Shown: positions 2,710-19,539 of the stretch, one piece after another
Layout of the letters: each line of letters opens with the position of its first letter
How positions within the stretch are numbered: position 1 is the stretch's first letter
Assembly (NCBI GenBank): GCA_023249255.1
Contig: JAHFCY010000027.1
Location: forward strand, 1-20,709
DNA length: 20,709 nucleotides
Direction: 5' to 3'
Source: Candidatus Lindowiibacteriota bacterium
GTDB taxonomy: Bacteria; Lindowbacteria; 2-12-FULL-62-27
Made by a program: the position numbers and the translations under genes
Notes under the pieces: model-generated
The model's input: the letters and a program-made list of their open reading frames with translations, nothing else
Database searches by the model: none
Told to the model about the DNA's origin: nothing

Positions 2710-5700
2710 TTACGGCGCGGCGATGATTTTGTCTTTGATCTGGTCGTAGATTTCGTCGGTGATGTCGGGGACCTGTTTGATGTCGGAGACGGTTTTGAAT
2801 TTGCCGTAGGTGTAGCGGTAGGCGTCGATCATCTTGGCGCGGTACTCGTCGATACCTGGAAGTTTCATGAGGTCTTCGGTCGACGCGGTGTTGATGTCAA
2901 CTTTACCCTTTTGTTCCTGCTCCGATTTGCCGGGCGTCACCGAGGACTTGATTTCGGGCATGGGCAGGCTGGCGTCGTAAGGTTGTTCCTCCTTGGCCGC
3001 CGGAGATTTTTGTTGGGCCGGCGCCGTCGCGGGCGTTGGTTGCGGAGCGGGAGCGGGTGAAACGGCCGGCTGTTCCGCCGTTGCGGATTTTTTTTGCGTG
3101 GGCGCAGGCGGCGGCGCAACGGCCGGTTGAACCGATTTCTGAGCGCTCGGCGTGCTGACGGGCGCCTGTTTTTGCGTCGGCTCCGGCGCGGGAGTCACGG
3201 CCGGCGTCTTTCGCGGTTCCGGCGCCGGCACAACGATCGGCGCAGTCTGCGTCGAACGTTTGGGCCTGGGCAGATCGTATGGCGACGGCTCTTCGCTTCG
3301 CGTTGCCGGCGTCACGCGTACAGGCGCCGTCGCGGGCTCCGGCGTCGGCGCTTTGCGCTCGGGCGTGGGTGTGGGAGTGGGCGCGGGGGCCGGCGCCATC
3401 TCACGCCGCGGAGCGGGCGCAATCGCTTCAGGCGCGGGTGTGGGTTCGGTGAATCGGCTCTCGGGCGCCACGGGCAGTCTCTGGGATTGTTCCGGCGCAA
3501 GAGCCATGTTTCCGACGGTACCGGCCTGAACGACGATAATGGGCCGCAGGAACCGGTCATAGAATCCCTTGTTCATTCCGTTGGCCAGAAGAAGAGACTC
3601 AAACTCGTCTTCGCTCCGGAAAATTCCGCGCGCCCTGCGTTCCTCCACGATCTTTTGCGCCATCCCGAGCGTGATGCCTTTGATCCGGACCAGTTCCTGA
3701 AGGCTCACGACGTTGACATCGGCCTTGTATTCGATCCGGTAGACGACGTCGTCAAAAATCACGCGCGTGAGGCCCGGCACGGTCAGGAGCTGTTCGAGCG
3801 ATTGATAGGGGCCGAATTGCTCTCGACGCGCCACGATGCGCTGGGCCAGACGCAAATGCTGTTCAGGATCAACATCGCTCCGAAGACCTGTCAGGTCCGA
3901 TATTTCGGCGACGGACGACGTGTTGATGTTGACGGGGAACGGCGTGATCTGCTGGAGTGACTTGGCGATGTCTTTGGTGACCTGCGTCGCTTCCGGCAGA
4001 TTGGTGATGACGCGCGGCGTGATGAAAATCATGAGTTCCGTTTTTTCCGTCTGTTCGCGTTTCGATTTGAACAAATTGCCGATCACGGGAATGTCTTTGA
4101 GGACCGGCACGGCCGAGGTCGCGGTCGTCCGCCGGTCCTTGATGACGCCGCCCAGAACAAGGGTCTGATTGTCTCCGAGGAGGACCGACGAGCTGGCGGA
4201 TCGTTTGGTGACGTCGATGCTTGAGCCGCCGCCACCGCCGGTGCCGGGGGCGAATTCGTCGATGTTGAGGGCGATGGTCAAATTGACGCTGCGGTCGTTG
4301 GAAATCGTCGGCACGACCGTCAACTTGAGCAGGGCGTCGATGTCCTTGTACTGGACCGCCGGAACGCCGGACGCGTTGAAAACAGTCTGGGGGACGGATT
4401 TGGTCGTGCCGGCGGATATGACGGCAGGCTTGTTGTTGAGGGCCGTGATTTTCGGCGTGGCCAGGACCTCGACTTTGCCGGTCTTCATCAGCGCCTCCAT
4501 GAGGAGCCTCATCTGTCCGGAATTGAGGATCACGCGGTAGGCGCCCGCGCCGAGCGTTCCGGGATTGAATTCGGTCCCTATCGCGCCGAGATTCTTGCTC
4601 AACGCGTTCTGGTCCATGATATCGAGAATTTTTCCATCGTTGTCGCGCAGCATCTCGGGCTGAGTGATGAAGTTGATGCCGCGGGAGTTGTCGTCGGCCA
4701 GAGTATATTCGAGGATCGAAGCGTCGATGAGGACCTGCGGCGCGCGTTGATCCAGTTTACGGATCAGTTCGGCGACGATCTTCATGATCGCCGGCGGCGC
4801 GACCACGGTGAGAGCGTTCAGGCGGTCGTCGGGGGAGAACCGGAGGAAGAGGCCGACACCGGTCGGACTGGCCGGGGATTTGTCGGACAGGCCTCCGCCT
4901 CCTCCCGCGCTGCTGCCCCTGGTGGTGAACTCGCCGGTCTTGGGGTCGACGGCGTAGATGTCCTGGCTGAGCGTTCCCTGTAAAATTCCGGCGATGTCGC
5001 TCGGCTTGGCGTTGTTCAGATAAAATACTTCCGTCATCATGTCCGGCGGAGGCGGCGACGCGACATCGATGTTATCGACCATGTCGTCGATCTGGGGAAA
5101 GAGCGATTCGCCCGCCGTCACGGCGATGAGGTTCGACCGCCCGATGGATCCGACCCTGGTGGAAACGCCGCCCAGACTGCCCAGCATGTTCGTGATCAGA
5201 GGGGAAGCCACTTCGGCCGAGACGTTTTTGAGCTGATAGACTTTGACTTTCGTCGCCGGCGCGGCGGCCGCCGGCACGTCCATCTTCTGGATCATGTCTT
5301 CAAGAGTTTTGGAACCGTCGGATGTTGAGAGGAAGACGATCGAATTGGATGCGGGATCGGCGTTGACTATCCCGAAAATCCGGTCCCGGTCGCTTCTATC
5401 CTGCGTGAGAAAAATTCTCAGTCCCGCCGCGATGTTCGCCGCGCTTCCGGCTTTCAGGAAAATCGTGCGCGTGACGAGGTCGGGGTTCGAAGGATTCATG
5501 ATGTCGAGCCGCTCTACGAGCCGGTCCAGTTTTTCGATGGCGGTCTTGCTGACAACGGCCAGCAGAGTGTTCGTCTTGGCCATGAGGGTGATGATGGCGG
5601 GAATCCGTCCCGGCAAATCGGCATCTGTCCATGCGCGCGTCGGACTTCTGGCGACATCGCCGGGATTGATCAGAAAATCCTTGAGGGCACTGTAGACGTC

Positions 5701-8700
5701 AAGCGCCTGGGCGTACTTGAGCGTGTATGTTTTGTATTCGACTTCAACAAGGTTTGCCTCGTCCAGCCGTTTGATGAAACCGATCACCTTTTCAACGTTG
5801 CGAGGCGAATCGAAGATAATCAGCGTCTTGCTGGCCGCGTCAATCATCCACCAGCTTTCGCCGGGACCTACTTTGACCGGTTCTGTCACCGATTGGGCTG
5901 TCACCTGCACCTGGTTGCGCCGGTCCAGGACGCTCGTCGTCGTCGTCGTGCCTCCGCCCGGATCAGCTTCCAACAGGCGATTGATCAGTTCCTGATCGGA
6001 CGATTGCTGGATGGTTTGCGGATCAAGATATTTGAATTTATAAATCGCAAGTTTTTTGACGCCGCGGTCGAGGAAGGAAAGGGCGGATTCGATGTTCTGA
6101 ATGGCGTCGCGGCTGTCATTGACGAGGATCGTACTGATATCGGCGAATTCCTTGTAGGTGCCTTTTGGCGTCATGTATCGCTTCACGAGGGCCATGCCCT
6201 CTTCCATATTCAAGTAGCGCAGTTTGAACTCTTGAATGGCCACATCGGAAAATTCGCTTTTGACGTCGAGCGACTCAATGACCTGGCCCACGAGGCTCAG
6301 AATTTCGCGGGTGCTGAGGACGGTGATGACGTTGGTGACCGGATTGATGGTCAGGACGTTCAGGGTGAGAGTCTGCTTGAGAAAATCCTCCGTGACGGCG
6401 TCGCCGCCCTTGCCGCCGGTCTTCGTCGACTTGTGGAGCGTCGAAGTCTTGAAATCGACCGTGCCTTTTTTCTTGATGGTGAGATCGCTCCCGATGAGGG
6501 TGAATTCGAATCCGGGGCCGCTCAAAATGGTGGCCAGACGGTCGGCCATGTCCAGTACGCTGACGTTGGCGACCTGAAACCGGCGTATCTCCAGATTGGT
6601 TTCCTTGGCTCGGGCGTACGGCACGTCAAGCAGATCGAGGATCTCGCCGACGCGTTTGACGTTGTCGGCCGTCTGAACGACCATGATCTGGTTGGTCAGG
6701 GGGTCGGCGATGATGTCTCCTCCCTCGCGCTCGACAAATTGCGTGAGGAGTTTCTGAATGTTTTCGGCGTCGGTGTACTGAAGTTTGAAAACGTGGGTGA
6801 CGAATTTGCCGCCGCCGCCCATGGTCGTATCAGTCTGGACGGGAAGCGGCCGGCCGAGGGCGCGCTGTTTGGCGATGATGCGGATGGTGTTGCCCTCCAG
6901 CACGCGCGTGAGGCCCGCGCTCTCCAACACCATGTCCATCGCCTCGAGGACCGTCACGTCGACCACGTGGATCGTCAGCGGGGGGATCTCGACTTTGGTG
7001 ATTTTGCCTTTCGGATCGAGCGGGTCGAGGAAGGGCACGATGTATTTTTGTTTGTTGTCGTCATACTCAAGGTCGAAAATGACGTTCATGTTTCCCAGCT
7101 GGGACAACGTACGGATGATGTCGATCACGACGGCGTCTTTGAAATCGAGCGATACGATTCGCTGATTGGCCTGCGCCGAAAACAACACGTGCTCGCCCGT
7201 TGCGGTGGTTCCGATGAGCCGCGCTTCCATGAGCTGTTCGCCCGGCTCCACGCCCAACACCCAGACCTCGCATCGGGCCAGGCCCTGCGAGTCGGTCACG
7301 GCCTCGTTGTCCCTCGGATCGTTCAGCCGGATGGCGTCCAGCCGTCCGTTGCCTTTCAAAATCGTGAACTGAACTTTTGCGAGCGGCACGGGATTGCCGT
7401 CGGCGTCGGTCACCCGGACGGTCAGCGGCTGGGGAAGCTCGTCACCGGAAACGGCCTCCTGAAGATCACCTGAAATTTTTTCGATGTGAATGCCCGCGCC
7501 GGCCGTGACGGTCACCGGCAGGGTCATTTCGAGAAGATTGAATTTGGCTGGGTCGCCCGCGGAAATTTTGATCGACATGGGCGAAACTTTTTTTCCGATT
7601 GCCAGCGGCGCTTCGATGATTCCGCCGGATGTGGTCTGAAGAACGAGTTTTTTGACGCCGTCGGAAGCCGCTCCGGACAGACTGCCATCGCCTGCGGCAA
7701 CCTCGAAGGTCACCGGCAGGTTGGCCACGGGCTGGGCGCTGGCCGCGTCGATGACTTTCAGGGAGAGCGGCCGGGCTTTCTGGTTCACCGCGACCGACTG
7801 GCCGAATCCGTTCATATCCGTGAATACGTACTGCGGGCCGATCTCGACAGCGGGAGCGGCGGCGCTGGGTTCGGCCGGCGCCTCATTTGCGGCCGGCACG
7901 GGCGCGCCGAGCATGGCGGCCAGAGCGTCCGGAACCTGCGCGCCTCCGAATCTCACCCAGTATCCACCCGTCTTGCTCTGCTCCACCACCGGCTGTTCGG
8001 ATCCTTTCCGAAGTTCGATCGACACGCGCGCGGTCTCGATGGGAAACGTCCGGTACTGGCTGTGCTTGATGCGGACGATCGGGCCATGCTTGACGTCAAA
8101 CGATTTTTTGGCCGGCAGGCGATCGACGGCCCCGGGCAGATCGACCGCCATGGTGGGCGGTGACGCAATGGGATTCGGCAGAAAATCGACGCCGTCCGTC
8201 GTGTGAATAAACACGATCGGCGATTCGGGGTCGCCGTAGACGTCGATGCCGTACACGCTCGGCTCATCCGGATTCGGCGGCTGCATTGATCCGAATCGGA
8301 GCGCGGGATACGCGGGCGCCTCCGGAATTTCTTTCACGGCCGGCTGGGGCGCAGGCACGGGTTCCTCTTTCGGATTTTCTTTCGTCACTGTGATCAATTC
8401 CGCGTGTCCCGTCGCCGCCGGAGCAGGGGTTGGAGCCGGCGCAACGACCCGCTCCGCCGCTTTGTTTTCCGCGCCGACGGTTTCGACCGCCTGTTGCGTT
8501 TCAGCGGCCGCCGGTACCGTGACCGTGACTTCTTCAATCGCAATGGCGGGCGGCTTGGCCTTTTCCGGTTTGGTTGACGGTTTGGCTGCCGGAGCCGCCG
8601 GAGTTTTTTTCTTCTCGGTTTTCTCGGCCTTTTTCGCCTTCTCCGGTTTGGCCGGAGGTTTCGCCGCTGGTTTTGCCTGTTTTTCCGCCGGCGTCTCCTC

Positions 8701-9090
8701 CGAGACCGTGACCTCCTCCATCATGATGTCGTCCGGTGCCGCAGGTTTGGCTTGAGGTTCTTTTTCGGCGTGGGGCGCTGCCACGGCCGGTTTCTCGTCC
8801 GGCTTTGGCGGCTCCCAGTCTTCGACCGGCTTGCCCGCCTCCTTCAGATCATTTTTGACTTCCTCGAGAAGTTTTCTGGCTCGTTCGTGCGATGGATTCT
8901 GCGTCAGCACCTGCTTGAGATACATCATCGATTCTTCCAGCCGTCCGGCCACGTAGGACTGCACGGCTGTGTTGAATGTCTCGTCCATGGAAGACGCGGC
9001 CCGTGTCTGCGGCAAAAACGCAAAGATCAGGACGCACAGCAGGAACGCGCCGGCGCTGACTCGCAGAAACCGATTGAGAAGCGTCATCAT
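2710..9090 (-). CDS. pilQ: Giant PilQ-type secretin with C-terminal ComEA-like HhH DNA-binding domains
   Basis: A 2126-residue outer-membrane secretin, about three times the size of ordinary PilQ. In order it shows a signal peptide (1-31, TRA cleavage site), a TPR-like helical hairpin (~34-85), a Lys/Ala/Pro-rich linker (~90-260) and an AMIN-like domain (~270-380). Two Ig-like domains follow (~421-640), then an STN/N0 domain (~641-745). Next come eight N1-type repeats (~762-1449), each closing with a helix and an LDVP-like end (LDVP, LDVK, FLDRG, RLDEA, RLDIM, KMDVP, NIDVA, KLDQR). The secretin barrel spans ~1450-1695 and ends in LKDIPVIGNLFKSK and ELMIFITPRVI. Two adjacent helix-hairpin-helix units lie at ~1731-1851 and a Pro-rich linker at ~1870-2055. 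A ComEA-like HhH unit forms the C-terminus (2063-2126, KVDINTASTEDLMKLPGI). The start overlaps the upstream stop (ATGA); Met2 is an alternative start. The HhH modules should lie in the periplasm, which suggests DNA uptake through the pore. Confidence 0.93.
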   Translation of the reverse strand: MMTLLNRFLRVSAGAFLLCVLIFAFLPQTRAASSMDETFNTAVQSYVAGRLEESMMYLKQVLTQNPSHERARKLLEEVKNDLKEAGKPVEDWEPPKPDEKPAVAAPHAEKEPQAKPAAPDDIMMEEVTVSEETPAEKQAKPAAKPPAKPEKAKKAEKTEKKKTPAAPAAKPSTKPEKAKPPAIAIEEVTVTVPAAAETQQAVETVGAENKAAERVVAPAPTPAPAATGHAELITVTKENPKEEPVPAPQPAVKEIPEAPAYPALRFGSMQPPNPDEPSVYGIDVYGDPESPIVFIHTTDGVDFLPNPIASPPTMAVDLPGAVDRLPAKKSFDVKHGPIVRIKHSQYRTFPIETARVSIELRKGSEQPVVEQSKTGGYWVRFGGAQVPDALAAMLGAPVPAANEAPAEPSAAAPAVEIGPQYVFTDMNGFGQSVAVNQKARPLSLKVIDAASAQPVANLPVTFEVAAGDGSLSGAASDGVKKLVLQTTSGGIIEAPLAIGKKVSPMSIKISAGDPAKFNLLEMTLPVTVTAGAGIHIEKISGDLQEAVSGDELPQPLTVRVTDADGNPVPLAKVQFTILKGNGRLDAIRLNDPRDNEAVTDSQGLARCEVWVLGVEPGEQLMEARLIGTTATGEHVLFSAQANQRIVSLDFKDAVVIDIIRTLSQLGNMNVIFDLEYDDNKQKYIVPFLDPLDPKGKITKVEIPPLTIHVVDVTVLEAMDMVLESAGLTRVLEGNTIRIIAKQRALGRPLPVQTDTTMGGGGKFVTHVFKLQYTDAENIQKLLTQFVEREGGDIIADPLTNQIMVVQTADNVKRVGEILDLLDVPYARAKETNLEIRRFQVANVSVLDMADRLATILSGPGFEFTLIGSDLTIKKKGTVDFKTSTLHKSTKTGGKGGDAVTEDFLKQTLTLNVLTINPVTNVITVLSTREILSLVGQVIESLDVKSEFSDVAIQEFKLRYLNMEEGMALVKRYMTPKGTYKEFADISTILVNDSRDAIQNIESALSFLDRGVKKLAIYKFKYLDPQTIQQSSDQELINRLLEADPGGGTTTTTSVLDRRNQVQVTAQSVTEPVKVGPGESWWMIDAASKTLIIFDSPRNVEKVIGFIKRLDEANLVEVEYKTYTLKYAQALDVYSALKDFLINPGDVARSPTRAWTDADLPGRIPAIITLMAKTNTLLAVVSKTAIEKLDRLVERLDIMNPSNPDLVTRTIFLKAGSAANIAAGLRIFLTQDRSDRDRIFGIVNADPASNSIVFLSTSDGSKTLEDMIQKMDVPAAAAPATKVKVYQLKNVSAEVASPLITNMLGSLGGVSTRVGSIGRSNLIAVTAGESLFPQIDDMVDNIDVASPPPPDMMTEVFYLNNAKPSDIAGILQGTLSQDIYAVDPKTGEFTTRGSSAGGGGGLSDKSPASPTGVGLFLRFSPDDRLNALTVVAPPAIMKIVAELIRKLDQRAPQVLIDASILEYTLADDNSRGINFITQPEMLRDNDGKILDIMDQNALSKNLGAIGTEFNPGTLGAGAYRVILNSGQMRLLMEALMKTGKVEVLATPKITALNNKPAVISAGTTKSVPQTVFNASGVPAVQYKDIDALLKLTVVPTISNDRSVNLTIALNIDEFAPGTGGGGGSSIDVTKRSASSSVLLGDNQTLVLGGVIKDRRTTATSAVPVLKDIPVIGNLFKSKREQTEKTELMIFITPRVITNLPEATQVTKDIAKSLQQITPFPVNINTSSVAEISDLTGLRSDVDPEQHLRLAQRIVARREQFGPYQSLEQLLTVPGLTRVIFDDVVYRIEYKADVNVVSLQELVRIKGITLGMAQKIVEERRARGIFRSEDEFESLLLANGMNKGFYDRFLRPIIVVQAGTVGNMALAPEQSQRLPVAPESRFTEPTPAPEAIAPAPRREMAPAPAPTPTPTPERKAPTPEPATAPVRVTPATRSEEPSPYDLPRPKRSTQTAPIVVPAPEPRKTPAVTPAPEPTQKQAPVSTPSAQKSVQPAVAPPPAPTQKKSATAEQPAVSPAPAPQPTPATAPAQQKSPAAKEEQPYDASLPMPEIKSSVTPGKSEQEQKGKVDINTASTEDLMKLPGIDEYRAKMIDAYRYTYGKFKTVSDIKQVPDITDEIYDQIKDKIIAAP

Positions 9091-12000
9091 TCCCCGAGAA
9101 CTCTCAAAACTTTTTCAAGCCGCGAGCGCATGGCTGCGGCCTCCGGATGGCCCGGATGGGCCGACAGGTACAACTCGATCGCTTTTCGCGCGGCCCGGTA
9201 TTCTCCGCGATCAATCATGGCCTGCACGTCGTCCAGAGACGGAATGCCGGAGGTGGCCTCGGACGGCCCCGGCAGGTACATCGCGGCGCCCGCGGTTCCG
9301 GCGGGCCTCAGCGTCACGTGAATCATGTTCGCCTTCGCCTCGATCGCCGGCTGCCAAGCCGCGTCGAATTTCAAAATCAGCCGCGGCGGCATTCCGACGT
9401 CCTCGGCCACCCGCGCGCCGCGCAGGCCGGGCAGGGTGAGGGCGTCGTAATCGAAGGATCGCAGGACGGATGAATTGGGGAGATGAACGACGAGCGTCTG
9501 AACGCCGGTGACGTAATTGACCGGCTCGGCCGCGCGGTATTCAAGGGGGCCGGAGGCCAGAAGATAAATGTCCGTCTGGGCGGCGGCGGCCTTGAAAAAC
9601 AGTCCGTCGACCTGCGGTTTCCAGTCAGCGGCCGATTCGGCCGCGGCTCCGGAGGATTTGACCTGAATGGTGATCCGCCCGGCCTGCGGGAAGACGACAA
9701 ACGCTTCGGCGATGCCGCGCGAAAAAAGCGCCGGCGACAGCGTGGCGGGAGAGATGGAATTGGCCGGAATCGCCGCGGCCGTCACGTCGAGCCGGAGCGG
9801 CCCGCCGATGCTTTTCGGATCGTCCGCGACGTTTCCGTAGGCGTCCTGGGCCGTCACGCGAATGCGGAACGGCTCGCCGGCGCGCACGGCGTCGAGGACG
9901 TCGACGCGATACGTGGACGCCGTGGATGCGACGACTTGAAATGGATTGGACCGCCCCGACGCGCGTTTGTCATCCGTGGTGGCGGACAGTTCCGTGGCGC
10001 CGGATCCGGTGACGTAGGCCTGCACCACGGCGATGCCCTCGCCAAAATCGGCCGCCCCGATTTCATTCGGGACGATTGTGCTCTGTCCCGTCGCGCTGAG
10101 ACGGACCCGGCCGGGATATGAAAAATCTTTGAGAACGTTGTAGTACATGTCCTGGGCTTCAATCCGGATCGGGAATAATTCTCCGGCCCGGATTTTCGGC
10201 GACACCGACACGAGAAAATGCGCCAGGGGCCCCGGCGCGACCCGGACCGGCGCCGACCGGCCGGTGGCTGAGCCGAACCGTTCGAATACGGTGAGAACGA
10301 TCCGTTCGGCAACGAAGGATCGAATGTCGGCCTGGGCGACGCCGTTTCGAAATGCGGATGTCGATACCGAGCCGGGCTGGATTTCACCCACACCGGTCGA
10401 TTGAATCTGCGCGCCGCTTCCGGTCCGGTTATAGTCGGTCACGGTGTTGCCGTAGGCGTCCCTGGCCGTCACCGTCAGCGAGAATGGCTCACCCGCCCGC
10501 GATTGAACCGGCGTGGCGACGTCGAAGTGGTGCAGCGGCCCCGGGACGATTTCGACCGCGCCCGACGTCACCCGCTTGCCTCGCACCTCGGCCACGACGC
10601 GGACGGCTGCCGCTCGAAAATGCGGGACCGTCACGGCCGCTTTGCCCTGCGAAAACGCCGCGGGCTGAACTTCCGTCGGCGCGACGGCGTCCGGGCCGTC
10701 CACAAACAGGCGGATGGGTCCGATCGCGGCGTCGACGTCGGTCACGACGTTGTGGAATTCATCCATCGCGGTCACGGTGACGGCAATGCCCGCGCCGGCC
10801 GCGGCCGCCGGCGGAGTCGCGAGATCCACAGTTGAGATCGGGCCGGGTTTGACGCGGACCCGAACCGGATCGGCCCGAAGCTCCCCTGCGGCGTCCTTGG
10901 CGGTCAACACGATTTCTTCAGCGATGTTGTACGTCAGTTTCCTTTCGGCGGCGCCGTTTTTGAACATCGCGCCTGTCAGGTCGATCGGCGTGGTTCCGAT
11001 CGATCCGAGGACGCTCAGGGATATTTTGGCCACGGGCGCTGTCGTGACGTTGCCGCGCGAATCGAGGGTGCGGAGGGTCACTGTGAATGGCGAGCCGGCG
11101 TCGGCCGCGGCCGGCGCGGCGATTTCAATCTGTTTCGGCCGGCCGGGTTTGACGTCGATGCGGCCGGACGCGCCGAGGCGCTGGGTGCCGGGTTCGGACG
11201 CGGCGAGGGATATGTTTTCGGGGCGGCCGTATGAAATTTTGACGAACGCGACGCCCTGCGAGAATTTCCGGGCGGAAACTTCGGATGGCGACGGGGCGAG
11301 CGTTCCGTCGGCGCCGAGGTAGACGACGGTGCCGACCGCATCGTAGTCGAGGACGACGTTTCCGAAGCGGTCCAGGGCGGTGACGGCGATATCGAACGGC
11401 TCGTCGACGAATACGCTCTCCGGCGCCGTGAGTTTGAACGACGCCGGATCCCCGGCGCCGATTTTGATCTTCGACGGAGATTTCCCGGTGACGTTCGATT
11501 TCGGATCGCGAGCACGAAGGTCGGCCTCGCCGGTTCCGGTGTATGTCACGGACGCTTCGGTTGTCCCCTCGGCAAATGACGAAGACGGCACTCTCGCCGG
11601 CGTGAGAGCGCCCGGCCCGTCAATCGACAGGACCACGCCGTCCGTCCTCTGCTGGAAATCCTTGATGACGTTTCCGTAGGCGTCGAGGGCCATGAGCGTG
11701 ACACGAAACGGCGAGCCCGCTCGCGCGCTCATGGGCGTGATGACGCGAAGGTCCGAGAGTTTTCCGGCGGCGACGTTGAATGGCGCGCTTCGCCCCTCAA
11801 GTTTTTCGGTTCCGCTCTTGAGCGACTTGACGGTAATCTCGATGCGCTCGGCGACCCGGTAGACAATCTGCACGTCGGCCACGCCTTTGTCGAACAGCTT
11901 CGGCTGGACGGTCTTCGGCCAGATTTCTCCCCGGCCCACCACCGACAACTCGAATCCCGCGCCCCGACGGTCGTAATCGGTCACCACGTTGCCGAACCGG

Positions 12001-12257
12001 TCGCGCACTTCGACCTTCGCCGTGAACGGCTCGCCCGCAGACGCGTTCGCCGGCACCGAAATCCCGACTGTCGCCGGCTCTCCGGCGGACACGTCAAGCT
12101 CCGCCGCCCCGCTCTGCGCGGCAAACATCGCCGCCAGTCCCGCCGCAAACAGAACTGCGAGCACGACGAATCGTCCCTCCGTCACCCTTGCCATAATCCT
12201 CTTCCCATACCCTGTATCACATGCTTCATCAAGTATGTGTATGCGTTCAGCCATCAT
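9087..12257 (-). CDS. Exported protein of eight tandem Ig-like domains with C-terminal AMIN-like and TPR-like parts
   Basis: A 1056-residue protein. From ~53 to ~883 it holds eight Ig-like repeats of ~104 residues, beginning near 55, 167, 271, 375, 475, 575, 680 and 780. Each carries an AG-EPF opening and a motif like DAYGNVVTDY. An AMIN-like beta region follows (~886-985, with LVVHLPNSS and RLILKF), then a short TPR-like hairpin (~1010-1056). The signal peptide is clear from Met22 (MARVTEGR then a hydrophobic stretch, cleavage near GAA). The start is ambiguous. ATG 12257 overlaps the pilP stop as ATGA and has GGAGG upstream. ATG 12194 has GGAAGAGG upstream and would give a normal-length signal peptide. 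Lying between pilP and pilQ, it is probably periplasmic and may bind the secretin or peptidoglycan through its AMIN-like part. This gene is not part of the classical pilMNOPQ set, and I do not recognise a named family for the whole protein. Confidence 0.85.
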   Translation of the reverse strand: MMAERIHILDEACDTGYGKRIMARVTEGRFVVLAVLFAAGLAAMFAAQSGAAELDVSAGEPATVGISVPANASAGEPFTAKVEVRDRFGNVVTDYDRRGAGFELSVVGRGEIWPKTVQPKLFDKGVADVQIVYRVAERIEITVKSLKSGTEKLEGRSAPFNVAAGKLSDLRVITPMSARAGSPFRVTLMALDAYGNVIKDFQQRTDGVVLSIDGPGALTPARVPSSSFAEGTTEASVTYTGTGEADLRARDPKSNVTGKSPSKIKIGAGDPASFKLTAPESVFVDEPFDIAVTALDRFGNVVLDYDAVGTVVYLGADGTLAPSPSEVSARKFSQGVAFVKISYGRPENISLAASEPGTQRLGASGRIDVKPGRPKQIEIAAPAAADAGSPFTVTLRTLDSRGNVTTAPVAKISLSVLGSIGTTPIDLTGAMFKNGAAERKLTYNIAEEIVLTAKDAAGELRADPVRVRVKPGPISTVDLATPPAAAAGAGIAVTVTAMDEFHNVVTDVDAAIGPIRLFVDGPDAVAPTEVQPAAFSQGKAAVTVPHFRAAAVRVVAEVRGKRVTSGAVEIVPGPLHHFDVATPVQSRAGEPFSLTVTARDAYGNTVTDYNRTGSGAQIQSTGVGEIQPGSVSTSAFRNGVAQADIRSFVAERIVLTVFERFGSATGRSAPVRVAPGPLAHFLVSVSPKIRAGELFPIRIEAQDMYYNVLKDFSYPGRVRLSATGQSTIVPNEIGAADFGEGIAVVQAYVTGSGATELSATTDDKRASGRSNPFQVVASTASTYRVDVLDAVRAGEPFRIRVTAQDAYGNVADDPKSIGGPLRLDVTAAAIPANSISPATLSPALFSRGIAEAFVVFPQAGRITIQVKSSGAAAESAADWKPQVDGLFFKAAAAQTDIYLLASGPLEYRAAEPVNYVTGVQTLVVHLPNSSVLRSFDYDALTLPGLRGARVAEDVGMPPRLILKFDAAWQPAIEAKANMIHVTLRPAGTAGAAMYLPGPSEATSGIPSLDDVQAMIDRGEYRAARKAIELYLSAHPGHPEAAAMRSRLEKVLRVLGE

Positions 12258-13150
12258 TCCCCTCCACCCACGTCAACTCCGCCCGCCGGAGCCTTTTCAT
12301 CGCCGGATGAAGAGGAAGACGACTGATCTTCGTCCGTTGTCTCCTCATCCCCATCCCCGCTGTTTTCGTCCGCCGATTCCTCGTCCGCCGCGGCTTTCTT
12401 TTTTACTTCCGTTTTCTTTTCGCCGCCCGCCTTCCCGCCGCCCTCATCGCCTTCCCCGGCGGCTGCCGCCTCCTCCTCCGCCCCGGACTCTTTCTTGTCC
12501 TTCTTGCGCCCCTTGCCGTACCGGCCGGAATAATCCCAATTCGACTGGGATTTGTACTGGTTCGTCGAAAGCGCGCTCGTCAGATTGTCCAGCCCGTATT
12601 CGTGCGGAAGATAGATCGGAGAAGGCATGAGTCCCTCCTCCTGAACCACGATCCGGGCCCGGCCGATTTCGACCACCCTCTTTTGCGTGCCCCGGATGGT
12701 TCGTCCCTCCATCGCGACAATCGCCACCCCGTTCATTTCAATCAGAGCGCTGCGGCGGCTTGGCGTATACGAATAGACCGTGCCGATGAGGTCGATCCCC
12801 GTCACGTCCGTAAATTTGTTTTCAACGTCCGTCGCGGTCTGCTCGACCATGCCCGGCGGCAAAAACGGATTGTGCTGCCGGAGAATCCGGACGTCGTACG
12901 ACATCTGCGCCGGCGGCGCCGGCGGCGGCGGCGGCTTGGGTTTGAGCCGCCGGAGCTGTTCCTCCACACGCTGGCGAACCACGCTGGCATCCTCCACGCC
13001 ATAGAGACGAAGCAGATCCGGCTGAACCCCGAACTGCTCGTAGACGCTGATGCCGACCCAGCCGATGCCCAGAAGCGACATCCAGAACAGCATCTTCAGA
13101 ACGGGCGCCTTCGCGTTGATCTTGAAAAAAAGTTCTTTTAACTTGCCCAT
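12254..13150 (-). CDS. pilP: PilP/GspC-like inner-membrane coupling protein with charged low-complexity tail
   Basis: A 298-residue bitopic protein. A short cytoplasmic start precedes one TM segment (~17-37), a linker with a polyproline run (~70-80) and a compact beta domain (~113-175, with LIGTVYSYTPSRRSALIEMNG and a final RARIVVQEEG). That is the homology-region fold shared by PilP and GspC, which contacts the secretin N0 domain. PilP is usually a lipoprotein; here there is no lipobox, and the TM anchor is GspC-like. From ~218 to the end the protein is almost entirely Lys, Glu, Asp, Ala, Gly and Ser, including a run of six Ser, and is surely disordered. It starts 1 nt after pilO stops, and its stop overlaps the next ATG in an ATGA. 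Position and fold support the PilP role; sequence identity to known PilP is low by eye. Confidence 0.8.
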   Translation of the reverse strand: MGKLKELFFKINAKAPVLKMLFWMSLLGIGWVGISVYEQFGVQPDLLRLYGVEDASVVRQRVEEQLRRLKPKPPPPPAPPAQMSYDVRILRQHNPFLPPGMVEQTATDVENKFTDVTGIDLIGTVYSYTPSRRSALIEMNGVAIVAMEGRTIRGTQKRVVEIGRARIVVQEEGLMPSPIYLPHEYGLDNLTSALSTNQYKSQSNWDYSGRYGKGRKKDKKESGAEEEAAAAGEGDEGGGKAGGEKKTEVKKKAAADEESADENSGDGDEETTDEDQSSSSSSGDEKAPAGGVDVGGGE

Positions 13151-13151
13151 C

Positions 13152-13709
13152 TCAAATGTCCGTCAGCGTCGATGAATAAACGTTGGCGTAGACGTCGAAC
13201 GTGAATGACTGGAGCTTGCTGCCGGGCTGGGCGGGCGAGGAAGCGATGTTGACCGTCGTGATGTCGATCAACCGCTTGTAGGATTCAATCCGCCACAGAA
13301 ATTCGATGAACTGATACCAGTACCCCGTGAACTGGATTTTCAGTCCCTCCGATTTCCATCCCTGTCCCTTTTCCTTGCCCTCCTCCAGTTGAATGCCTTT
13401 GATCTGCACGCCCGACGCCGCCGCCAGACCCTGAATTTTTTCGATCAACTCGAATGAACTGGCTTCGTTTGGCAGAATGTTTTTCAGCTCCGTCAGCCGG
13501 TATTTAAGCTGGTCGACTTCACCGGACAGCGCACTCATATTTTCGGCTTTTTGGTGCGCAATCCTTAGCTCCTTCACAAGTTTATCAATTTCCAGCAGGC
13601 GCTTTTCATGCGCTTCGTACATCGGCTTGATTCCGAAAAAGCTGCCGGCTCCGACGACAATAAAGAAAAGCCCGCCGATTAGTTTTTTCTCGCTGTCTTT
13701 GAGCTGCAT
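13152..13709 (-). CDS. pilO: PilO, type IV pilus inner-membrane alignment protein
   Basis: A 185-residue protein of normal PilO size. A short cytoplasmic tail and one TM segment (~11-28, GGLFFIVVGAGSFFGI) are followed by a coiled coil (~32-80, rich in Glu, Lys and Leu) and a ferredoxin-like periplasmic domain (~85-185). The late motif GYWYQFIEFLWRIESYKRL is typical of PilO/GspM-type proteins. In the family, PilO pairs with PilN through the coiled coils and TM regions and links the cytoplasmic ring to PilP. The ATG sits 1 nt after the pilMN stop with AGGGAG six nucleotides upstream, so translation is probably coupled. Unlike its neighbours this gene is not enlarged. Confidence 0.9.
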   Translation of the reverse strand: MQLKDSEKKLIGGLFFIVVGAGSFFGIKPMYEAHEKRLLEIDKLVKELRIAHQKAENMSALSGEVDQLKYRLTELKNILPNEASSFELIEKIQGLAAASGVQIKGIQLEEGKEKGQGWKSEGLKIQFTGYWYQFIEFLWRIESYKRLIDITTVNIASSPAQPGSKLQSFTFDVYANVYSSTLTDI

Positions 13710-13710
13710 G

Positions 13711-16593
13711 TCAGCTCCCTGTGCCGGCCGGCGCGGCCGCTAATTTCAACGCCGCGGAGTGGTCAACCTTCAACTGGAAATCCACCTGAAATGTTTTCGC
13801 ACCTCCGGCTTCCTGGCCCTCCCGGGGGTTCGGCCGGTTGGTGAGCGTGAAGAGGCCTTTTGTGTATTCCGGCGACTGAAAGCGCCGGCCGATTTCCGGA
13901 ATGTCGGACAGACTCGACGTCACGACTTGAATCTCCAGCCGGTCTTTCGCCGGCATCGCCATTCTCGAAATGGAGGCGTTGTCAGGCACGGTTTTGTCCA
14001 GCGCCGTCAGGATTGCCAGCCAGCTCGACCGGCTACCGATCAGCGTCGCAATGGATTTTTCCATGTCATTGACCGTCTTCTGGTCCTTCTCAAGCTGGCG
14101 GGTCCGGCTGACCACCGGTTCCAGTTCCTGAATGTCGGTCTGAATTTTTTTGTGCAGTACCTCGGTGTTGTGAACCGTCATGTACATGTCCCACAGAAAC
14201 ATGGCCGCCAGAATTCCGGCCGCCGCCCCGAGCAGTTTCATTTCTTTGCCGAGCGAGCGCATCCGCCGCATCGCCATGATGTTCTCCGGCAGCATGTCGA
14301 CATCCAGCGGCGTGCCGTCGATCATCCGCATGCCCATGCCGAGCGTCGTTGTGTAAATTTGGGGATTTTCGGTCTGGGATGCGCCGTCCACAATCTCCAC
14401 TTTGGCCATTGGATCAAACACCGTGATCGGAATGTTGAGCTGGGTCGACAAATATTCGGCTAATCCTTTGAGCGTCGCGCCGCCTCCGGAAAGATGGACG
14501 CGCTTGATCTCCCCGCTGTTGAGCTGCGTCACAAAATAGTCGAAGGAGCGTCGAAGCTCGGTTGCGAGACGGTCGGCGATCGGTTTGACTGCGGCGGACA
14601 ATTTTTCTTTGTCGACTTTTTCATCGCTGTCGAACAGATCAAAAACGGCGCTGTCGTCCGCCTTCGCCGCGCCCAACGATTTGCCGTCCGGGGCTTTTGG
14701 AGGTCCCGGAGGTTTGGGACCCGGAAGACCGCCCGGTGGAGCCGGAGGTTTGGGCAATGAGAGCGCCGCACCGGATGTGTCCGGTGTCGGCATTTTCGGG
14801 GCGCCGGGAGCGGCCGGAGGTTTGGACATCGTGGACACGGTCGGAGAGCCTGGCGTTGTCGCCGGCGCAGAAGGAGCAACCGGAGCCGTCGGCGGACTTG
14901 GCGGCTTCGGCAATGAAAGAGTCGGCGGCTTTGGCGCCGCGTGCGCAGCCGGCGTCGCGGGTGGAGTCGATGGAGCAGAAGGAGCAACCGGAGCCGTCGG
15001 CGGACTTGGCGGCTTCGGCAATGAAAGAGTCGGCGGCTTTGGCGCCGCGGGCACTGCAGGCGTGGCAGGTGGAGTCGATGGAGCGGAAGGAACAACCGGA
15101 GCTGTCGGCGGACTTGGCGGTTTGGGTAACGAGAGAGCCGGAGGTTTCGGAGCTGTCGGCGCTGTTGGCGCGCTTGCGGCGCCCGGCGTGGATGGAGGTT
15201 TCATGACGGGTGGCGCCGGCAGATGCATTTCCGTTGATTTCTTGGGAATTTCCTGTTGAGCATCCGCTCTCGTTCCCGGCAGAGCGGCGCTGGCCGGGAG
15301 TTTGACCGCAACAGGTGGCGTTAATCCTTCAACCGGCGGTGGAGTTCCGGGCGGAGCAATGGCGGGCGGCTTTGGCGCGATGGTTGCTGCGGCCGCCGGT
15401 GCGGGTAAATTCCCCGGTGGTAGTGGAGCAGGTGGAGACGGTTTGTCTGCCGCCTGAATATTCGGCGCTGATGATGGCGGACCCGGCAAACGAGCCGGTT
15501 TCATGAGGTCCGGCGCTTTCGGCGCCGCCAATCCTCCCGGCGCCGGCGGCGCAAGTCCCGGTGTTTTCGGCGGCGCAAGTCCTCCGGCGATTGGCGGCGC
15601 AAGTCCCGGCGATTTGGGCGGAGCAAGTCCTCCGGCGCTTGGTGGTGCCAGTCCCGGCGATTTGGGCGCAGCTAAACCTCCCGCAGAAGGAGGTGGGAGT
15701 CCGCCCGCCGCGCTTGGCGTTTTCGGCGCGCCAAGGCCGGCGATCCCCGGAGCTTTTGGCGCGCCAAGGCCGCCCGCAGCAGGAGATTTCGCAGCCGTCT
15801 CCGACGCGCCTAGATCCACCGTGATCGCTTTCACTTCCGCAAATTTAATCTTCCACGCCTCCGCCTTTTCCTCCGGAACGCCCATTCGCTTGGCAATGGT
15901 TTCCGTGAAACTGCGGCCGGCAATCGGAACGCTTCTTGTGAAATTCACACGGCCGTTTCTGATCAACGCGATGTCGGTTGTTCCGGCGCCGATGTCAACA
16001 AAAACTTCGGCGATTTCCTGGTCTCCTTCGTCTTTCAGCGTCGAGTGGTGGTACAACGAAAACAGCGCCAGCGTCGTCACGTCGACCAGTTGGACTTCCA
16101 ACCCCGCTTCCTCGATGATCGAAACCATGCTGTCCAGTTTGTCGCGCTTGATTGCCACCAGAAGCACTTCGAATCCGTTGTCCGTTTTCTTCGCTTCACA
16201 CCAGTCCAGGGACACCTCGTCCAGCGGAAACGGGATGTGTCCCTCGGCCTCGTGCCGCACAACGCCCTCCAATTTTTCCCGGGGAATTCCCTGGAACGAC
16301 AGATACCGGATCACCACCGACTGGGCGGGCAGGGCGAAGATCGCAGGCTGTTGTCTGAATTTGTATTTGGCGACGAGAGTTTTCAGAAGTTCCGCGGCTT
16401 TGGCTTCAAAATCTTTTCCGGACAGACCGGGAGGGACGGGCAGACTATCCCATAGGTCCACCCGGTACTTGTCCCCTCCGCCCGACAGTCTGCAGATTTT
16501 CACCGCAGACGTGCCGACATCGACCGCCAGACAGGACTTTTTGCCGAAAAGAGAAAGTTTCGGCAGGGTCAAACTTGGTAATTGAAACCCCAT
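13711..16593 (-). CDS. pilM: PilM-PilN fusion with large Pro/Ala-rich insertion in the PilM fold
   Basis: A 960-residue protein joining two normally separate pilus proteins. PilM is an actin/FtsA-like cytoplasmic ATPase. Its first half is at ~18-255, with phosphate-1 motif LAVDVGTSAVKI (~21-32) and phosphate-2 motif VDIGAGTTDIALI (~196-208). About 385 residues of Pro/Ala/Gly-rich repeats (~262-645) interrupt it, and the fold resumes at ~665-765 with IADRLATELRRSFDYF and the nucleotide-binding LSGGGATLKGL. Directly after VDMLPEN begins PilN: TM ~785-807, coiled coil ~810-850 and a ferredoxin-like periplasmic part to the end. In the family, PilM binds the PilN N-terminal peptide (consensus INLLP), and here that peptide is the junction itself, VDMLPENIM. 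GGGGGA lies six nucleotides before the ATG. It is the first gene of the operon. The insert is in frame with no stop, and I see no sign of frameshift. Confidence 0.9.
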   Translation of the reverse strand: MGFQLPSLTLPKLSLFGKKSCLAVDVGTSAVKICRLSGGGDKYRVDLWDSLPVPPGLSGKDFEAKAAELLKTLVAKYKFRQQPAIFALPAQSVVIRYLSFQGIPREKLEGVVRHEAEGHIPFPLDEVSLDWCEAKKTDNGFEVLLVAIKRDKLDSMVSIIEEAGLEVQLVDVTTLALFSLYHHSTLKDEGDQEIAEVFVDIGAGTTDIALIRNGRVNFTRSVPIAGRSFTETIAKRMGVPEEKAEAWKIKFAEVKAITVDLGASETAAKSPAAGGLGAPKAPGIAGLGAPKTPSAAGGLPPPSAGGLAAPKSPGLAPPSAGGLAPPKSPGLAPPIAGGLAPPKTPGLAPPAPGGLAAPKAPDLMKPARLPGPPSSAPNIQAADKPSPPAPLPPGNLPAPAAAATIAPKPPAIAPPGTPPPVEGLTPPVAVKLPASAALPGTRADAQQEIPKKSTEMHLPAPPVMKPPSTPGAASAPTAPTAPKPPALSLPKPPSPPTAPVVPSAPSTPPATPAVPAAPKPPTLSLPKPPSPPTAPVAPSAPSTPPATPAAHAAPKPPTLSLPKPPSPPTAPVAPSAPATTPGSPTVSTMSKPPAAPGAPKMPTPDTSGAALSLPKPPAPPGGLPGPKPPGPPKAPDGKSLGAAKADDSAVFDLFDSDEKVDKEKLSAAVKPIADRLATELRRSFDYFVTQLNSGEIKRVHLSGGGATLKGLAEYLSTQLNIPITVFDPMAKVEIVDGASQTENPQIYTTTLGMGMRMIDGTPLDVDMLPENIMAMRRMRSLGKEMKLLGAAAGILAAMFLWDMYMTVHNTEVLHKKIQTDIQELEPVVSRTRQLEKDQKTVNDMEKSIATLIGSRSSWLAILTALDKTVPDNASISRMAMPAKDRLEIQVVTSSLSDIPEIGRRFQSPEYTKGLFTLTNRPNPREGQEAGGAKTFQVDFQLKVDHSAALKLAAAPAGTGS
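14867..15157 (-). repeat. In-frame 108-bp tandem repeats in the PilM insert
   Basis: Three copies with a 108-bp period, encoding 36-residue Pro-rich units. The 75-bp segments at 14867-14941 and 14975-15049 are identical base for base. A third copy at 15083-15157 is clearly related but diverged at many third positions. Each unit codes for PKPP-TLSLPKPPSPPTAPV followed by a SAPSTPPATPA spacer. Because the period is a multiple of three, copy-number change would keep the reading frame. The near identity of two copies points to a recent duplication or gene conversion. Confidence 0.85.
15511..15690 (-). repeat. In-frame 48-bp repeats in the PilM insert
   Basis: A second repeat family in the same insert. 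It has a 16-residue unit of the type GGLAPPKSPGLAPPSA, about three and a half copies with small substitutions. At DNA level the copies are similar but not identical. It is separate from the 36-residue repeats nearer the C-terminal side of the insert. Confidence 0.75.
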
Positions 16594-18438: not shown

Positions 18439-19539
18439 ATGGCAACCAGCTATCACATCAACGACTTTTTGAAAATCATGGTCGACAACGGCGCGTCCGA
18501 CCTCATCCTCAAAACGGGATCGCCGCCGGCCATGCGGATCAACCGATCGCTCGTCAAGGTCGAGATGGAACCGTTGACGCCCGAGACGGTCGAAAAACTC
18601 TGTCTCAACATAACCGATTGGGAAAAAGTATCCAAGGTCAAACAGGGCGAGGAGCAGGACCTCGCCTACGGCGTGCCGGGCGTCGGCCGGTTTCGCGTCA
18701 ACATGTTCCGCCAGCGCGGGACGCTCGGAATGGTCATGCGACACATCAAGGCGAATATTCCGAATTTCGAGGAATTGCTTCTGCCGCAGGTCATGTTCAA
18801 TCTCTGCGGGTTTCAGTACGGAATTTTTCTCGTGACCGGCACCACGGGCAGCGGCAAATCCACGACCCTGGCCGCCATGATCGATTACATCAATACCACC
18901 ACGCCCAAACACATCGTCACCATCGAAGACCCGGTCGAATTTCTCCATCAGGACAAAATGAGCGTCGTGACCCAGCGCGAAATCGGAATCGATACCCTGA
19001 CGTACGGCACGGCCCTCAAATATGTCCTGCGCCAGAATCCCGACATCATCCTCGTCGGCGAAATGCGCGACAAGGAAACCGTCGACACCGCCATCACCGC
19101 CGCCGAAACCGGCCATCTCGTCCTCTCGACCCTTCACACCGCCAACGCGCCGCAGACGGTCGAGCGCATTCTCGAATTTTATCAGCAGGAGGAGAAGGAT
19201 CGTATGCGGGTCATGCTGTCCGAGTTTCTCGTGGCGGTCGTGTCCCAGCGGCTCATCCCGCGCGTGGACGGCAAAGGCGTGGCGCCGAACGTCGAGATCA
19301 TGATTCGGTCGCCCATCGTAAAAAAACTGATCATGGACAACCGAATCCCCAAACTGAAATCGGCCATCCATCAGGCCCGGCAGGAAGGCATGCAGACGTT
19401 TGACCAGTCGCTCGTCGATTTGTTCAATGCGGGTCTCATCTCGGCCGAAGACGCCCAACGGCATGCATCCAAACCCGCCGCGTGGGAGCTTTACCTCAAA
19501 GGTCATTTCCCGGATATCGACACAGGCATTCTCGGATAA
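18439..19539 (+). CDS. pilT: PilT/PilU-type pilus retraction ATPase
   Basis: A 366-residue secretion ATPase acting as a cytoplasmic hexamer at the pilus base. The N-terminal PAS-like domain (~1-110, GASDLILKTGSPPAMRIN) is followed by the RecA-like domain: Walker A GTTGSGKST (Lys140), Asp box VTIEDPVEF (~159-167), Walker B ILVGEMRD with catalytic Glu208, and His box LVLSTLHTAN (~226-235). Length and motifs match the retraction ATPases rather than PilB, which is longer and has a zinc tetracysteine motif absent here. The C-terminal motif needed for retraction, AIRNLIRE in PilT, is replaced by PIVKKLIMDN (~291-300). Downstream EGMQTFDQSLVDLF is kept. This may mean a PilU-like or divergent PilT. 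It is separated from the pilMN-Q operon by two housekeeping genes. The radical SAM gene starts 11 nt after its stop. Confidence 0.92.
   Translation: MATSYHINDFLKIMVDNGASDLILKTGSPPAMRINRSLVKVEMEPLTPETVEKLCLNITDWEKVSKVKQGEEQDLAYGVPGVGRFRVNMFRQRGTLGMVMRHIKANIPNFEELLLPQVMFNLCGFQYGIFLVTGTTGSGKSTTLAAMIDYINTTTPKHIVTIEDPVEFLHQDKMSVVTQREIGIDTLTYGTALKYVLRQNPDIILVGEMRDKETVDTAITAAETGHLVLSTLHTANAPQTVERILEFYQQEEKDRMRVMLSEFLVAVVSQRLIPRVDGKGVAPNVEIMIRSPIVKKLIMDNRIPKLKSAIHQARQEGMQTFDQSLVDLFNAGLISAEDAQRHASKPAAWELYLKGHFPDIDTGILG

Follow-up and report, generated by a model that had tools for sequence, protein, structure and literature searches.

The window analysed here, 20,709 nucleotides of contig JAHFCY010000027.1 from a Candidatus Lindowiibacteriota bacterium, encodes a secretin whose reading frame runs on beyond the barrel into helix-hairpin-helix (HhH) modules of the ComEA family. 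This raises the question of whether pore and DNA receptor have been joined in a single protein, as a sequence-only reading of the locus had proposed. In natural transformation, the step in which DNA is handed from secretin to ComEA is still open. A secretin with built-in ComEA-family domains offers a natural connection of pore and HhH proteins that can be tested, whether these domains bind DNA or serve for docking.

The 2126-residue frame comprises, in order, an AMIN domain, an Ig-like domain, seven Secretin_N stretches, the secretin barrel, two HhH units (HhH1 and HhH2), a Pro-rich linker and a third HhH unit (HhH3) at the C-terminus (Table 1). Pfam and NCBIfam place it in the secretin family (PF00263), with N-domains preceding the barrel. 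It passes the GspD model TIGR02517 (399.8 bits, cut-off 351.35) but does not reach the cut-off of the PilQ model TIGR02515 (224.8 bits, cut-off 284.35), and is more GspD-like than PilQ-like by these profiles although its operon is of the pilM/O/P type and a pilT-type gene lies nearby. The protein resembles PilQ and GspD secretins in its barrel, its many N-domains and the pilM-O-P operon; it differs from both in the C-terminal HhH tail, the Ig-like domain and a conserved Ig-repeat neighbour gene, and from PilQ in its GspD-like barrel. The seven Secretin_N stretches suggest that the periplasmic stack of rings is very long and may exceed the six rings (N0–N5) of Thermus PilQ (PMC8578077, PMC5745081).

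Table 1. Features of the secretin frame and neighbouring genes in the window (res, residues).
Feature	Position	Strand	Basis and remarks
2126-aa secretin with C-terminal HhH tail	2710..9090	-	single open frame, no internal stop; Pfam/NCBIfam secretin and HHH_3
HhH3, C-terminal ComEA-type domain, res 2061-2122, hairpins GIDEYRA / DITDEIY	2725..2913	-	HHH_3 67.4 bits; TIGR00426; AF2 model
Pro/Ala-rich linker, res about 1857-2055, 26% P, 18% A	2926..3522	-	45-56% identity, poorly conserved
HhH2, about res 1791-1852, hairpin GITLGMA	3535..3723	-	HHH_3 33.5 bits alone; AlphaFold model
HhH1, res 1720-1780, hairpin insertion of ~8-10 residues, S-domain position	3751..3933	-	HHH_3 47.5 bits alone; in 5 genomes, two lineages
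Secretin barrel domain, res 1533-1695	4006..4494	-	PF00263 6e-42; TIGR02517 GspD 2e-119
Repeated Secretin_N region, 7 stretches, extended periplasmic stack	4735..6825 (limits approximate)	-	PF03958 2.8e-58
AMIN domain, res 282-370	7981..8247	-	PF11741 3.3e-5, above cut-off
Secreted Ig-like-repeat protein, 1056 aa, short C-terminal TPR	9087..12257	-	directly upstream of secretin, 5/5 genomes, 27-54% identity
Probable PilP/GspC-like protein	12254..13150	-	weak T2SSC / GspC_delta match and position
PilO	13152..13709	-	PF04350 3.4e-14
PilM with Pro-rich insert and putative PilN-like C-terminal part	13711..16593	-	PilM_2 1.2e-50; TM and coiled-coil C-terminus, PilN by position
Probable PilT-type retraction ATPase	18439..19539	+	T2SSE 1.3e-46; type by length and neighbourhood

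When scored singly against Pfam HHH_3 (PF12836; cut-off 27 bits), each of the three HhH units exceeds the cut-off (Table 1), and the whole protein gives three HHH_3 matches (2.2e-37). The NCBIfam model TIGR00426, 'ComEA helix-hairpin-helix repeat region', matches residues 2060–2123, with a score of 86.2 for the protein against a cut-off of 53.1. These matches confirm the arrangement described in the sequence-only reading, namely barrel and HhH modules in one uninterrupted frame, with two adjacent units, a Pro-rich linker and a ComEA-like unit at the C-terminus. The interval it had assigned to the modules, 2713–3903, covers HhH2, the linker and HhH3, but HhH1 starts just outside it, at 3933. 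HhH3 as modelled by AlphaFold (mean pLDDT 75, core 85–88) superposes onto Geobacillus ComEA (PDB: 8dss) with a TM score of 0.73, an rmsd of 1.2 Å and 36% identity, the next structural matches being Tex and PsbU. HhH2 is modelled with a pLDDT of about 80–90 over most of the unit and its nearest folds include ComEA and GspK (XcpX), with weak scores, while the HhH1 model is of low confidence. A ComEA fold is therefore predicted for HhH3, less strongly for HhH2, and HhH1 is poorly modelled. The GspK SAM-like domain (T2SSK, PF03934) and PsbU (PF06514) share a related HhH-type fold and match the window units weakly; they occur in other host proteins and score below HHH_3 (for HhH1 and HhH2, in the case of T2SSK). 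A derivation of HhH1 and HhH2 from GspK is conceivable, although HHH_3 is the better match. HhH3 is most like ComEA itself (B. subtilis, 8dfk; Geobacillus, 8dss; V. cholerae; TIGR00426, PF12836), with which it shares family, fold, a NINTA-type start and an expected periplasmic location. The window units are unlike ComEA in being fused to a secretin, in having lost the hairpin glycines and mostly the key lysine, and in coexisting with canonical ComEA-type proteins.

The window lineage is rare, with only two further genomes of its family among those searched, one of them named Candidatus Lindowbacteria. The complete order of HhH1, HhH2, Pro-rich linker and HhH3 after the barrel is found in three Lindowbacteria-type genomes, that of the window and two relatives (G001, Candidatus Lindowbacteria RIFCSPLOWO2_12_FULL_62_27, and G002, NC_groundwater_1274) whose proteins are 2201 and 2026 residues long. 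A second lineage carries the barrel with HhH1 and HhH2 in two genomes, G020 (T1Sed10_126; 1614 residues) and G060 (at least 1527 residues); HhH3 is absent in G020, and the G060 contig ends inside HhH2. A profile spanning the barrel and HhH1–2 gave five spanning matches in 386 genomes, 293 of which match the profile at all, and three more genome samples, largely overlapping the 386, added no further fusion. This profile may miss fusions with a long spacer, which would be caught, where the fetched stretch is long enough, by a check of 72 other secretin ORFs (some cut at the ends of the stretches); none of these has HhH units after the barrel. Scanning 84,980 species with a sequence pattern likewise returned only three secretin cases, the remaining matches lacking a secretin barrel. 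Within the samples covered, the HhH-tailed secretin is thus confined to two lineages, both uncultured and little known, and a wide occurrence of the fusion was rejected, with only 5 genomes among about 390. The sequence-only reading knew of no described example, and none was found in the open-access literature. Some genomes of a soda-lake survey were suspected to lie near WS1 and Lindowbacteria (PMC6146748), and the HhH1–2 pair could therefore descend from a common ancestor of both lineages. An origin of the fusion in a chimeric assembly, a frameshift or a chance match has next to no probability: the window assembly is 88.7% complete and in 366 contigs, but the same fusion is present in separately assembled genomes of different projects (G001, G002, G020 and G060), which rules out a chimera or frameshift, and the domains score well above their cut-offs.

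The HhH tail is retained in 5/5 genomes across the two lineages and, together with the N0-type domain, forms the best conserved part of the secretin among close relatives. Identities between the window and the two close relatives are 88/85% for HhH1, 78/80% for HhH2 and 83/80% for HhH3, against 54/57% for the barrel, 39/50% for the N-domains and 46/45% for the linker; among all three close genomes HhH1–2 are 78–88% and HhH3 80–88% identical. Since the HhH units are better conserved than the barrel, the tail is functional and under strong selection, and the linker is a tether only.

HhH domains grip the phosphate backbone of DNA through backbone nitrogens of their hairpins. In V. cholerae ComEA, G60E or G60V renders the protein non-functional while G60A is tolerated, and substitutions of K63 abolish or strongly lower DNA uptake and transformation (PMC3879209); the equivalent K164 of B. 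subtilis ComEA is central (PMC9747964). We aligned 74 HHH_3 units from the five genomes, adding two ComEA sequences as references. The second glycine of hairpin 1 (the G60 site) occurs in 0/13 secretin units, against 30/34 for the small HhH proteins that these genomes encode (Fisher 1.7e-8, which ignores relatedness, the secretin units being effectively three domain types); for the hairpin 2 GxG the figures are 0/13 and 25/34. All three secretin HhH types have lost the canonical DNA-binding hairpin glycines, and the GxG hairpin of a ComEA receptor is seen in none of the 13 units. The HhH3 hairpin (GIDEYRA) has Asp at the G60 site and Arg at the K63 site, the latter in all sequences; HhH1 and HhH2 of the window lack a Lys before the conserved Ala (K63 in V. 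cholerae, K164 in B. subtilis), and HhH2 of the second lineage (NIDPDAA) has no hairpin 1 glycine at all. Tex and EEPD1 have variant hairpins too, and the glycine loss is therefore an argument rather than proof; nor is the lysine decisive, because Lys or Arg stands at this site in only 6/34 of the lineage's small HhH proteins. Of the HhH units that this lineage carries in other fusions, 12/27 retain GxG, and with hairpin loss frequent in fused units and lysine loss frequent in stand-alone ones, sequence alone does not decide the matter. HHH_3 matches that lack the hairpin glycines should not be taken as DNA receptors. Charge was rejected as a test of DNA binding, since the ComEA references, too, have values near -1 to -2, and in the second lineage all HhH proteins are acidic.

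The genomes with the tailed secretin also code for separate ComEA-type proteins whose hairpins are intact, some beside ComEC; one with canonical GxG shares contig G000:C112 with a ComEC gene, and in G020 another lies a few genes past the secretin. All three close genomes contain DprA and several ComEC-family proteins, the latter at three or more places each (G000, G001, G002), some sharing a contig with ComEA-type genes. Downstream of the secretin gene in T1Sed10_126 come a 399-aa gene, ComEC, a ComEA-type protein of three units, a metallo-beta-lactamase-type protein and a further HhH protein; from this gene order, the pilus of that lineage probably serves DNA uptake. Given the separate canonical ComEA-type proteins, the pore has not simply taken over the function of the receptor, and the receptor role seems to be filled already.

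HHH_3 modules are common in these bacteria: each genome has 11–32 matches, and many of them fall in long ORFs that are unrelated. Such modules are joined, among others, to Ser/Thr kinases, to PLD-like proteins and to a 4028-aa frame, many without GxG (L080 on G000:C204; L083, L084, L050, L051 and L052 on G001:C33). The HhH3 type (GIDEYRAKMIDAYRYTYG) also occurs in G001, in a TPR protein of 480 residues, and in G002, in a protein of 637 residues, both of secreted type. A near-invariant module in three unrelated proteins suggests that HhH3-type modules may have a common binding partner. The copies in the TPR protein (L043:1657-3096, + strand) and the 637-aa protein (L044:1450-3360, - strand) are nearly identical to the HhH3 type of the secretin (LPGIDEYRAKMIDAYRYTYG).

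In the established topology of secretins, the C-terminal side after the barrel is periplasmic. The HhH tail begins about 20 residues past the barrel, the place of the S-domain, which in known secretins binds pilotin on the periplasmic side (PMC3542185). The likeness to S-domain–pilotin systems (PulD/PulS, GspD/AspS) is one of position only, a C-terminal segment directly after the barrel, the S-domain being about 60 residues long and natively disordered (PMC3542185) and the tails here 150–420 residues with HhH domains; the HhH domains that fill the place of the S-domain are conserved over the two candidate lineages. We consider it about an even chance that the window protein is a type IV pilus secretin in which this position holds a conserved HhH docking or assembly arm. 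The tail would replace the S-domain of a pilus secretin with a GspD-like barrel (in a pilM-O-P-Q operon) and would hang in the periplasm around the barrel, with HhH1 and HhH2 packed nearby and HhH3 on its long flexible Pro-rich tether. PsbU and the GspK SAM-like domain use an HhH-type fold for protein–protein contact, and the tail may dock in the same way, holding the secretin to putative partner proteins of the pilus or DNA-uptake machine. The S-domain position, the strong conservation, the glycine loss, the coexisting canonical ComEA and the recurring HhH3 type all count for docking. Against it count the short S-domains of known secretins, unrelated in sequence, the Arg of HhH3 at the critical Lys site of ComEA, the ComEC and ComEA neighbours in T1Sed10_126, where direct contact between tail and DNA would make sense, and the frequent loss of the hairpin among HhH units in other fusions of this lineage.

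The proposal of pore and receptor in one protein would have up to three HhH units per subunit bind DNA where it enters the periplasm from the pore and pull it in as a ratchet, with or instead of free ComEA. Its structural part holds, in that the modules are C-terminal and expected in the periplasm; the HHH_3/ComEA membership and ComEA fold, the pilM-O-P operon near a pilT-type gene, ComEC and DprA in the close genomes, the T1Sed10_126 gene order and the HhH3 Arg agree with it, as does the DNA binding of meningococcal PilQ, which occurs through another, N-terminal region (PMC2884949). DNA capture by the tail is possible on these grounds, yet the receptor proposal as a whole appears doubtful to us in view of the glycine-less hairpins, the Asp of HhH3 resembling the inactivating G60E (PMC3879209), HhH1–2 without the key Lys and with an insertion in the HhH1 hairpin, and the canonical ComEA-type proteins that these genomes encode. 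Because the key residues of the DNA-gripping loop are lost and ordinary ComEA receptors are kept in the same bacteria, a role as docking arm is more likely for the tail than one as the actual DNA receptor. Known secretins have 12–15 subunits per ring, and three HhH units per subunit would give some 36–45 units; that such a ring grips DNA through a non-canonical surface (the Arg/Lys/Tyr-rich RAKMIDAYRYTYGKFK) and hands it to canonical ComEA and ComEC we regard as unlikely. The abundance of HHH_3 modules in many secreted proteins of the lineage, among them kinases, PLD-like and TPR proteins and the 4028-aa frame, would suit a mobile module acquired without a specific pilus or DNA-uptake role, for example as a stabilising or spacer domain, but the conservation of the tail, matched only by that of the N0-type domain, and its retention in 5/5 genomes of two lineages make this improbable.

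The 401-aa downstream gene was rejected as a conserved partner, its similarity to the 399-aa gene of G020 being marginal and the gene being absent downstream in G001 and G002. An Ig-repeat gene of 1000–1056 residues precedes the secretin gene in both lineages; in the window its neighbours are the pilP-like gene on one side and the secretin gene on the other, and its product is possibly a secretin partner. The window PilM contains a long Pro/Ala-rich repeat insert within its actin-like domain, with tandem repeats of 108 and 48 bp; PilM_2 matches it in two stretches, and it is apparently fused to the PilN-like part.
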